Assembly: GCA_903848905.1 (NCBI GenBank)
Contig: CAINHP010000108.1
Span: forward strand, 1-36,330
Direction: 5' to 3'
Source of the DNA: an uncultured Pseudomonadota bacterium
GTDB taxonomy: Bacteria > Pseudomonadota > Gammaproteobacteria > Methylococcales > Methylomonadaceae
Length of the DNA: 36,330 bases
The translations under genes were made by a program, and so were the position numbers. The notes beneath the pieces were generated by a model, which was not told the DNA's origin, ran no database searches, and saw nothing but the letters and a program-made list of their open reading frames with translations. Positions 2,723 through 5,875 of this stretch are shown here, in pieces. Each line of letters starts with the position of its first letter. Within the stretch, counting starts at the first letter, position 1.

Positions 2723-3496
2723 TTAATTGGTTTCTGTCACAAATTGTGTTTCAGTTATCCCTAATTTAGCTAATTTATGACTGAGTTCATATACGTTATG
2801 TGAAGCATCAATGGGAAGCTGAACTTTGTATAAAGTTGCGCCTTTATGACTTGATGAAGCAATTTTTGCATCAGGCAATTGATGTTTGCTAATATTTTGC
2901 TGTAGAGCTTGGGCAAGTTTTCTATTATTAAAACTGCCTACCTGCAAATAAACAGGTTGATTTTGCTTTTGCAATTGTATGAGTGCTTGCTCAGGTTCAA
3001 TTGTTTGAATCGCAACTTCACTAGTGCCCGATACATCCATACCTAATTGCTTAGCTGCAGAATACGATAAATCTAAAATACGGTGATCATAGAAAGGCCC
3101 TCGATCATTTACGCGAACAATAACCGTGCGATGATTGGACACATTCGTAATTTGTGCATAAGAGGGAATGGGCAAACTATTGTGAGCGGCTGTCATACCG
3201 TACATATCAAATAATTCACCTGTGGCGGTTTTTTTGCCGTGAAATCCTTCTCCATACCAAGATGCAACACCATGCCTTCCGTGTATTTTAGTTGAAATGG
3301 AATGCGATACTTTTTTTATAGCATTAATTTCGTTTGTTTTTTTAGCGACTTCTTTTGCAGTCTCTGAAGGTTTTTCACTCGACTGTTGCGTTGCGACAAT
3401 ATTATTTTCAGTCAGTGCAACAGGGGTATTCACAGTTGTTGTATTAGCACAACTACCAAATGCCAAAAGCGATAAAACAGGAATCAATTTTTTCAT
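2723..3496 (-). CDS. rlpA: RlpA-family septal lytic transglycosylase/lipoprotein with C-terminal SPOR domain
   Basis: Lipobox-like LLAFGSCA, DPBB motif (GVASWYGEGFHGKKTATGELFDM...VRVNDRGPF) and SPOR-like C-terminus (VYLQVGSFNNRKLAQAL). Confidence 0.92.
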   Translation of the reverse strand: MKKLIPVLSLLAFGSCANTTTVNTPVALTENNIVATQQSSEKPSETAKEVAKKTNEINAIKKVSHSISTKIHGRHGVASWYGEGFHGKKTATGELFDMYGMTAAHNSLPIPSYAQITNVSNHRTVIVRVNDRGPFYDHRILDLSYSAAKQLGMDVSGTSEVAIQTIEPEQALIQLQKQNQPVYLQVGSFNNRKLAQALQQNISKHQLPDAKIASSSHKGATLYKVQLPIDASHNVYELSHKLAKLGITETQFVTETN

Positions 3497-3556
3497 AAAG
3501 TGGTCTATTCGTTGGTTTCAATAAGCCAAACCCAAAATAGCGGGGCTTAACGTTAT

Positions 3557-3597
3557 GAAGTGCCTTTGAATTTTTTCATTTAAGATCAAAGAACTTC
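3557..3597. other. Imperfect hairpin in the rlpA-globin intergenic region
   Basis: GAAGTGCCTTTGA (3557-3569) pairs with TCAAAGAACTTC (3586-3597), one bulge. Confidence 0.45.
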
Positions 3598-3667
3598 ACC
3601 ACCTTCTCATATATATGGCATTAGAATAAGAAGATTTTTAACTTTAATGGTAAAAATGTAGCATTTG

Positions 3668-3698
3668 TTGTTAAGTTGTCGTAATTTTAACTTAACAA
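3668..3698. other. Perfect 10-bp inverted repeat upstream of the globin gene
   Basis: TTGTTAAGTT (3668-3677) / AACTTAACAA (3689-3698), 11-nt loop. Confidence 0.55.
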
Positions 3699-3806
3699 GT
3701 ATTAAATCCACCTTAAGCGCAACTTTTTATTTATGTTTTACATCATCAAAGAATATTATCTATTGTTTTTTGCCATTTTCCGATAAAATAAGTAGGAAAT
3801 TATTGA

Positions 3807-3834
3807 TTGAAAAATGGCTTATATTGACGATAAT
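3807..3834 (+). promoter_or_regulatory. Candidate sigma70-type promoter for the globin/GGDEF unit
   Basis: TTGAAA (3807-3812), 16-bp spacer, GATAAT (3829-3834), about 60 bp upstream of the ATG at 3895. Confidence 0.4.
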
Positions 3835-3894
3835 TTTCAGTACAAAAACAGCATTATTAACTTAGAATAAAAACAATAATTAGGAACCGACAAA

Positions 3895-4392
3895 ATGAGT
3901 AACTCAAATTTATATACCCGCTTAGGCGGCGAAGAATCTATTAGTAAAATAGTTGACAGCTTCTATGAAAAGATGACGGATGACTACCGTGTTAGCCGTT
4001 TTTTTAACGACGATGATAAAAAAACGCAACGCAGCAGCTTAAAAGCATTGGTTAACGCCATTTTAAATAATCACAACACCCACTCCCCAGAATTCAAAAA
4101 TTTATTGACGAAATTCTTTATGTCTGCCTTTGCGCGATTCAAAGATAAAGAAAGACTTCCTGAAACGGGTTTTGCTTATTTAGGATATATCATTGGACAA
4201 AATCATCTTAGTTCAAAATATCTATGCGATAGTCACAGTCATTTGTTAAAATTCATGCCTGAAGATTTACATTACGATATAGTGATTGCTCATTTAAAAG
4301 AAACTTTGCAATCATTAAATGTTGACCATGCGCTTCTATCTGAAGTAATTACACTTGCTGAAAGAGGGCGCAACGGCCTATTGGGTAAATAA
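3895..4392 (+). CDS. Truncated hemoglobin (group-1-like) with an internal insertion
   Basis: N-terminal LYTRLGGEESISKIVDSFYEKM matches the trHb LGG and B-helix FY motif. Putative proximal-His segment CDSHSHLLKF..., then HYDIVIAHLKETLQSLNV...LLGK. SD AGGAACC precedes the ATG. Confidence 0.8.
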   Translation: MSNSNLYTRLGGEESISKIVDSFYEKMTDDYRVSRFFNDDDKKTQRSSLKALVNAILNNHNTHSPEFKNLLTKFFMSAFARFKDKERLPETGFAYLGYIIGQNHLSSKYLCDSHSHLLKFMPEDLHYDIVIAHLKETLQSLNVDHALLSEVITLAERGRNGLLGK

Positions 4393-4426
4393 CTACTCTA
4401 GTAGTTTGACTAGGAATGGATTTAGC

Positions 4427-4888
4427 ATGACTGAAGAAAAAGACCTGTTTTCAACTGATGACGTTTCAATTTCCATTGACTCAAATCACGCACACTTGCA
4501 ACGTCGATTTAATTTAGAGCGCCGAGAAAATACGAAAAAAGCAGCTATATTAGAGTTAGACTTGGATTTGGATGATTTCAATGCGATGAATACCAATTCA
4601 TTTAGTGACAGCGAGGAATTATTGCGACAAATTGGGGAGAGATTAAGACTTCGATTGCGTGATAACGATGTGGTTTTACCTGTCACCAACAATAAGTTCA
4701 TGGTGCTTTTAGAAGATATTCAGTCACCAGATAATGCGGATAATGTTGCTAACGAACTGTTAAATCTCCTAACTCGCCCTTATGAATTAACACAAAATAA
4801 CGATGTTAAAATTGGAACAAAGATTGGAATTAGTTTCTTCTCTAACCCAGATGAACAAGAAGAAGAAACTAATACTCCCCACAATTGA
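4427..4888 (+). CDS. Stand-alone degenerate GGDEF-domain protein
   Basis: ILELDLDLDDFNAMN...LLRQIGERLRLRLRDNDVVLPVTNNKFMVLLED...IGTKIGISFF follows the GGDEF fold pattern, with GGDEF replaced by TNNKF. The track ORF begins at 4355; the ATG at 4427 has an upstream AGGA. Confidence 0.75.
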   Translation: MTEEKDLFSTDDVSISIDSNHAHLQRRFNLERRENTKKAAILELDLDLDDFNAMNTNSFSDSEELLRQIGERLRLRLRDNDVVLPVTNNKFMVLLEDIQSPDNADNVANELLNLLTRPYELTQNNDVKIGTKIGISFFSNPDEQEEETNTPHN

Positions 4889-5875
4889 TTAATGTACTTC
4901 TATTTGATTGCTTGAGCCCGCTGACTTTAAGCCCAAGCGATCAAATAAAGCCAAGTCGTGATTTGTCATTGGATTATCGGTGGTAAGTAATTTATCACCA
5001 TAAAATATTGAATTAGCGCCGGCAAAGAAACACAATGCCTGCATTTCATCGCTCATCGTATTGCGACCTGCCGACAAACGAATGCGTGACCTAGGCATCA
5101 TGACTTTAGCTACTGCAATCGTGCGAATAAACATAAGTGGATCAAGTTGCTCTGTGCCCATAAGCGGTGTTCCTTCTACTTGAACGAGCATATTGACAGG
5201 CACACTCTCTGGATGTTTAGGCATATTGGCAAGCTGTATTAAGAGATTGGCGCGATCTAAATCACTTTCTCCCATACCCACAATTCCTCCACAACATACA
5301 TTAATTCCTGAATTACGGACGCGCTCAAGCGTATCTAAGCGATCTTGGTAGGTGCGAGTGGTAATCACTTCAGCGTAATATTCCTCTGACGTATCTAAAT
5401 TATGATTGTAATAATCAAGACCCCCTTCTTTTAATCGTGTCGTTTGAGTATCCGTTAACATTCCAAGTGTTACACAGGTCTCCATTCCAAGGGATTTAAC
5501 GCCCTGCACCATTTCAACGACACGTTCAATATCGCTATCTTTAGGCTTACGCCAAGCAGCGCCCATACAAAATCGAGTTGCGCCTTGAGATTGCGCAAGT
5601 TGCGCCGCCTTTAATACCTCATCAACGGGCATAAGTGCTTCAGATTTAACACCTGAATCATAACGTGCACTTTGTGGGCAATAGCCACAGTCTTCAGAAC
5701 ATGATCCTGTTTTAATACTAAGTAAACTGCTAATTTGCACTTCATTAGGATTAAAATTTGCGCGATGAATAGATTGTGCCTTAAATAACAAATCGTTAAA
5801 TGGCAGCGCATACAACGCTAAAACCTCATCAATTTGCCAATCGTGACGAATCTGAGTTGCGGTTGAATCTAACAT
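4889..5875 (-). CDS. bioB: Biotin synthase
   Basis: Radical [14 protein letters not shown] motif, [38 protein letters not shown] and [33 protein letters not shown]. Confidence 0.97.

Follow-up and report, generated by a model that had tools for sequence, protein, structure and literature searches.

Degenerate GGDEF domains are known as c-di-GMP receptors. PelD, a receptor of this type, has lost the active-site motif, retains the RxxD motif of the I-site and is not a cyclase. PopA, CdgG and SgmT are further degenerate-GGDEF receptors that bind c-di-GMP through the I-site, and in all four proteins the domain lies within a larger protein that carries an effector, membrane or receiver domain. In the diguanylate cyclases (DGCs) PleD and WspR, the I-site serves product inhibition. 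GGDEF proteins are also combined with heme proteins. Globin-coupled sensors (DgcO/DosC and relatives) are built from a globin and a GGDEF domain, and a stand-alone heme protein is paired with a separate GGDEF protein in SwH-NOX/SwDGC, Hnox1/Lpg1057 and D. shibae H-NOX/Dgc1 (split H-NOX pairs: PMC8846402, PMC8738867). In the methanotroph Methylobacter, a stand-alone O2-binding protein of the Hmr/Hst pair in the hcp-hcr cluster is proposed to relay a signal to a c-di-GMP protein encoded nearby (PMC6977074). No published pair of a truncated haemoglobin (trHb) with a GGDEF protein or diguanylate cyclase was found in the open literature searched.

The window (the whole 36,330-nucleotide stretch of DNA that was analysed) comes from a freshwater methane-oxidising bacterium whose genome assembly spans 2.49 Mb (278 contigs, completeness 96%). 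Among the named public records of its close relatives, freshwater Methylococcaceae MAGs predominate, UBA10906 being one of them. The original prediction described a globin gene and, 34 nt further along the same strand, a gene for a degenerate GGDEF protein of 153 aa, the two being flanked by minus-strand genes; this layout agrees with the coordinates obtained here:

2723-3496, minus strand: rlpA-like gene, upstream flank
3895-4392, plus strand: long (insert-bearing) group-I truncated haemoglobin, 165 aa, ATG start (Bac_globin above cut-off; group-I trHb structures closest; His114 invariant; AlphaFold)
4069-4215, plus strand: inserted segment between helices E and F, about codons 59-107, with a helix at 65-78 and a low-confidence loop (gap in ordinary trHbs in alignment A2; AlphaFold)
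4393-4426, plus strand: intergenic gap of 34 nt (34-35 nt in four genomes; no terminator-like site)
4427-4888, plus strand: stand-alone mini-GGDEF, 153 aa, active site lost, I-site kept, both ends truncated (Pfam, alignment)
4658-4669, plus strand: predicted RxxD primary c-di-GMP I-site, codons 78-81 = R-D-N-D (R78 and D81 invariant in 14/14 aligned minis)
4685-4699, plus strand: codons 87-91 = T-N-N-K-F, at the place of GG(D/E)EF (alignment)
4889-5875, minus strand: bioB, downstream flank, abutting the GGDEF stop

The mini-GGDEF frame begins with ATG at 4427 and ends with the stop codon at 4886-4888. No terminator-like site was found between the two genes, the four promoter-like sites in 3450-5000 were not above the chance expectation of 6.3, and an Rfam scan of 3300-5000 for a riboswitch or other RNA element upstream gave no match up to E = 1. 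Co-transcription of the two genes is plausible. Both are under purifying selection, with Nei-Gojobori dN/dS values of 0.09-0.24 for the globin and 0.12-0.26 for the mini; the neighbouring bioB, comF and DUF1566 genes gave 0.02-0.04, 0.06-0.13 and 0.05-0.15, and all of these values are rough because dS is saturated in several pairs. Since both genes are present in four genomes, show dN/dS of about 0.09-0.26 and retain the gap of 34-35 nt, they are real genes, and a pair of pseudogenes is disfavoured by the same dN/dS values and conservation. Compared with the described heme systems, the pair exhibits several discrepancies. In contrast to globin-coupled sensors, a stop codon and 34-35 nt separate the two reading frames in four genomes, the globin is a truncated globin rather than a sensor globin or protoglobin, and the GGDEF domain is dead. 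Unlike the H-NOX/DGC systems, the heme protein is not H-NOX, the partner lacks the catalytic residues and the pairing is not conserved. The Methylobacter pair differs in that it comprises a hemerythrin and a full PAS-EAL-GGDEF partner.

The mini-GGDEF has lost its active site and kept its I-site. GGDEF (E 7e-12, 45.8 bits against a cut-off of 23.8) is the only significant Pfam domain in this protein and in three other minis checked, with no linked effector or sensor domain, as had been predicted for the partner. Fourteen minis were compared with 30 full-length GGDEF domains (26 from this genus and four from other genera of the family) in a MAFFT alignment, with positions given in PleD numbering. 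Ten key positions are invariant in 30/30 full-length domains. Two of them, R359 and D362 of the RxxD I-site, are kept in 14/14 minis; K332, N335, D344, R366, G368, G369, D370 and E371 are degraded, and the hydrophobic F372 is also retained. The GG(D/E)EF motif is kept in 0/14 minis and reads TNNKF in the window mini, which thus bears out the claim that the partner is non-catalytic and shows the pattern of an I-site receptor, RxxD retained and active site lost. An active diguanylate cyclase is ruled out, as the catalytic K332, N335 and D344 are degraded and GG(D/E)EF is lost. The retention of RxxD could partly reflect structure, because RxxD is universal in the full-length relatives as well.

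A further arginine, R33, is invariant in the 14 minis, whereas its column holds R in 14 of the 30 full-length domains (Fisher p = 5e-4, an optimistic value since the sequences are related). It is located 43-45 residues before RxxD. In WspR, R198 lies 44 residues before R242; it is contributed by a second domain to complete the I-site, and c-di-GMP retention depends on it (PMC2270323). A c-di-GMP dimer cross-links the primary I-site of one GGDEF domain to the secondary I-site of another, and at the secondary I-site either of two positions is enriched in arginine (PMC8041772). PleD R313 falls two columns away from R33 in the MAFFT alignment, and R33 matches the secondary I-site by spacing, not by column identity. 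The minis share with PleD and WspR the RxxD motif and have an arginine roughly where WspR has R198; unlike these enzymes they have no catalysis left to inhibit and consist of the regulatory part only. They resemble PelD in losing the active-site motif and keeping RxxD, and differ from PelD-type receptors in that they stand alone, are truncated at both ends and form a multi-copy dispersed family.

Of the 18 genomes searched in the genus, 11 carry stand-alone mini-GGDEFs of about 110-170 aa (G000, the window genome, and G001, G003, G004, G005, G006, G008, G010, G011, G013 and G014), at nine kinds of locus. Their neighbours, named from translations rather than by HMM assignment, are globin and bioB; HinT and a permease; tatC; fapA/DUF342; comEC (three genomes); prmC; a SnoaL-like gene; a PilZ-like gene; and fae. 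Globin-free loci include those at comEC (L207, L210, L213), prmC (L212), fapA (L064, L170), tatC (L043/L215) and HinT (L002, L058, L059, L062), and the minis at all of these have kept RxxD and lost GGDEF. All minis share one aligned core that ends shortly past the strand ISFF/VDFV. They lack the N-terminal helix and the C-terminal helix/strand with which a normal GGDEF domain begins and ends, and this loss could impair folding; the AlphaFold model of the window mini, built from four sequences, is poor (pLDDT 47). In a maximum-likelihood tree, all 17 mini rows fall on one side of a branch with support 100/98, or 100/99 with the motif columns removed, and a single origin is the simplest reading because of this placement. 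This new-looking, I-site-only family is a more notable finding than the globin pairing. Four full-length proteins of the window genome have intact GGDEF motifs, and an EAL domain was seen in three of these. The presence of c-di-GMP in the organism is accordingly expected, and the four proteins could be both its source and docking partners of the mini. Genomes in the window's clade of four have 5-6 GGDEF matches each, compared with 20-24 for some sister species, which suggests that the c-di-GMP network is shrinking.

Among group-I truncated haemoglobins, the globin is a paralogue distinguished by a conserved insertion of about 40 aa after helix E. Bac_globin matches residues 5-57 only (E 3e-7, 31 bits against a cut-off of 21), the protoglobin family scores 15.7 bits, below its cut-off of 25, and only globin families match in Pfam, with no HNOB (H-NOX) match. 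In a PDB sequence search, ordinary group-I trHbs align to both ends and leave the middle unmatched (THB1, E 3e-12). The insertion is present in 16 long relatives of the alignment and absent from ordinary trHbs, and the proximal (F8) His114 and an RFF segment are invariant in 19 aligned sequences. The AlphaFold model (pLDDT 80, pTM 0.74) places the early helices and helix E first, followed by the inserted helix at 65-78, an unsure stretch at 85-108 (pLDDT < 50) and helices F, G and H. Foldseek returns group-I trHbs as the best matches, with 6cii on top (TMt 0.79, probability 1.00, though rmsd 5.9). The globin thus shares the sequence and fold match and the proximal His with C. reinhardtii THB1, the Tetrahymena protein and Synechocystis GlbN. 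In contrast, the short Gly-Gly EF region of these proteins of about 120 aa is replaced by the helix-bearing insertion between E and F, giving 165 aa. The earlier assignment as a truncated haemoglobin holds, the protein matching group I and keeping the proximal His; it is not an ordinary member, and the insertion had been missed.

An exact-motif scan of 84,980 genomes, which could miss distant long globins without those motifs, gave 94 relatives, with 80 loci kept; all long forms among them belong to this genus, to Methylomonas or to a small number of further Methylococcaceae records. The window genome carries two further trHb-family genes of normal length. norB lies one gene from the long globin at two loci (L079, 2044-4127; L080, 2-1465), and a norB homologue with 90% identity is present in the window genome. 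At L079, norC and an HD-GYP phosphodiesterase are also near the long globin. The insert-bearing globin represents a separate, Methylococcaceae-specific variant of group-I trHb that is occasionally near nitric-oxide-reductase genes. In G025 (L018, 1498-3263), an FAD/2Fe-2S reductase adjoins the long globin and an ordinary trHb lies beyond, which suggests that the long form arose through duplication of a trHb-reductase unit. The long globin of G009 (contig 265, L021/L195) is broken by an in-frame stop, which is evidence of loss. Judged from the family and a few neighbourhoods, the globin most likely binds heme via H114 and most likely handles NO or O2.

The original prediction proposed the two genes as a candidate heme-dependent signalling pair, with conserved adjacency and co-occurrence among its checks. 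Adjacency was observed in four closely syntenic genomes only (G000, G013, G014 and G006), where bioB is always next and rlpA lies ahead wherever the contig extends that far. The syntenic block runs rlpA-globin-mini-bioB-DUF1566-comF, so the adjacency is no stronger evidence than that of any other block neighbour. The intact long globin of four other species of the genus (G004, G005, G007 and G015) has other neighbours, long globins of Methylomonas and other genomes have no adjoining GGDEF gene, and the bioB surroundings in other species of the genus hold no globin-mini pair; in G015 the genes near bioB encode an ordinary trHb together with its reductase. Among the 18 genomes, six carry both gene types, three the globin only (including the broken G009 copy), five the mini only and four neither, which gives no co-occurrence in these small counts of related genomes (Fisher p = 1.0). 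With the long globin elsewhere lacking a GGDEF neighbour and minis at many globin-free loci, a dedicated pair is not supported beyond one small clade, and a conserved two-gene module is rejected as a general system. The pairing looks local rather than conserved, since the mini belongs to a scattered family of apparently single origin.

We hold, at slightly better than even probability, that these are functional genes that evolve separately and lie in tandem in one small clade, the mini being a non-catalytic c-di-GMP binder or docker and the globin a heme protein that handles NO or O2. The mini family, apparently of single origin, has given up catalysis together with the two ends of the GGDEF domain and retains the I-site. 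The mini would bind c-di-GMP through R78-x-x-D81 and, with the help of the conserved R33, would dock in a c-di-GMP-dependent way either to another copy of itself or to full-length GGDEF-EAL proteins at their I-sites; docking is suggested by the usual role of the product dimer in bridging primary and secondary I-sites (PMC8041772). It would thereby act as a receptor, buffer or inhibitor, a non-catalytic adaptor. The globin would bind heme through H114 and handle NO or O2. The two genes would at best be co-transcribed, and direct coupling is unnecessary to explain the data.

The coupled version of this arrangement, in which the globin would bind O2 or NO and, touching the mini directly, govern how the latter binds c-di-GMP or docks, appears unlikely. 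The tandem order and spacing kept in four genomes, the purifying selection on both genes, the split H-NOX pairs and the proposal that the Methylobacter hemerythrin hands O2 on to a PAS-EAL-GGDEF protein from its own cluster (PMC6977074) are all consistent with it. Nevertheless, the synteny of the entire rlpA-to-comF block leaves the adjacency within background, other long-globin genomes show neither adjacency nor co-occurrence, and the alignment reveals no feature of the globin-linked mini beyond those of the globin-free minis. Similarly improbable is reuse of the GGDEF-derived fold of the mini for binding GTP or another nucleotide, or as a protein-protein scaffold, with the I-site residues being structural. 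Degenerate GGDEF domains can sense GTP (PMC8846402, PMC7288161) and RxxD sits at a helix end; against this, the PleD GTP-contact positions N335 and D344 are lost in most minis, and the polar invariants R33, R78 and D81 coincide with known c-di-GMP contacts. We give still less weight to a broader proposal, a new class of often multicopy, I-site-only minis that would bind c-di-GMP and clamp or buffer full-length GGDEF-EAL proteins like handcuffs, with one copy in the clade of the window coupled to the insert-bearing NO/O2 globin and gated by heme. An eroding GGDEF-EAL relic, transiently kept while the clade shrinks its c-di-GMP network, would fit the low GGDEF counts, the in-frame stop or broken frame near the end of the HinT-linked mini of G006 and the fae-linked minis of G005 that lack the usual start codon for the full-length frame, but it is very improbable given mini dN/dS of 0.12-0.26 over high dS and an identical pattern of loss and retention across 14 members of a single clade.

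If, as the preferred reading of a c-di-GMP-binding mini holds, these proteins do bind c-di-GMP, the regulatory part of a cyclase can be excised, multiplied and spread as free-standing receptor modules. The minis would then provide a clean natural test of the role of the I-site without catalysis, and an extra layer of c-di-GMP control in freshwater methane oxidisers.

A further short candidate was observed in G066, and G144, a genome of another genus, carries a copy closely similar to the fae-linked mini of G005. Contig 21 of G005 contains two near-identical mini-GGDEF/fae segments (L208, L209), and the same arrangement occurs in G144 (L239), possibly as a result of transfer, a repeat or a binning artefact.
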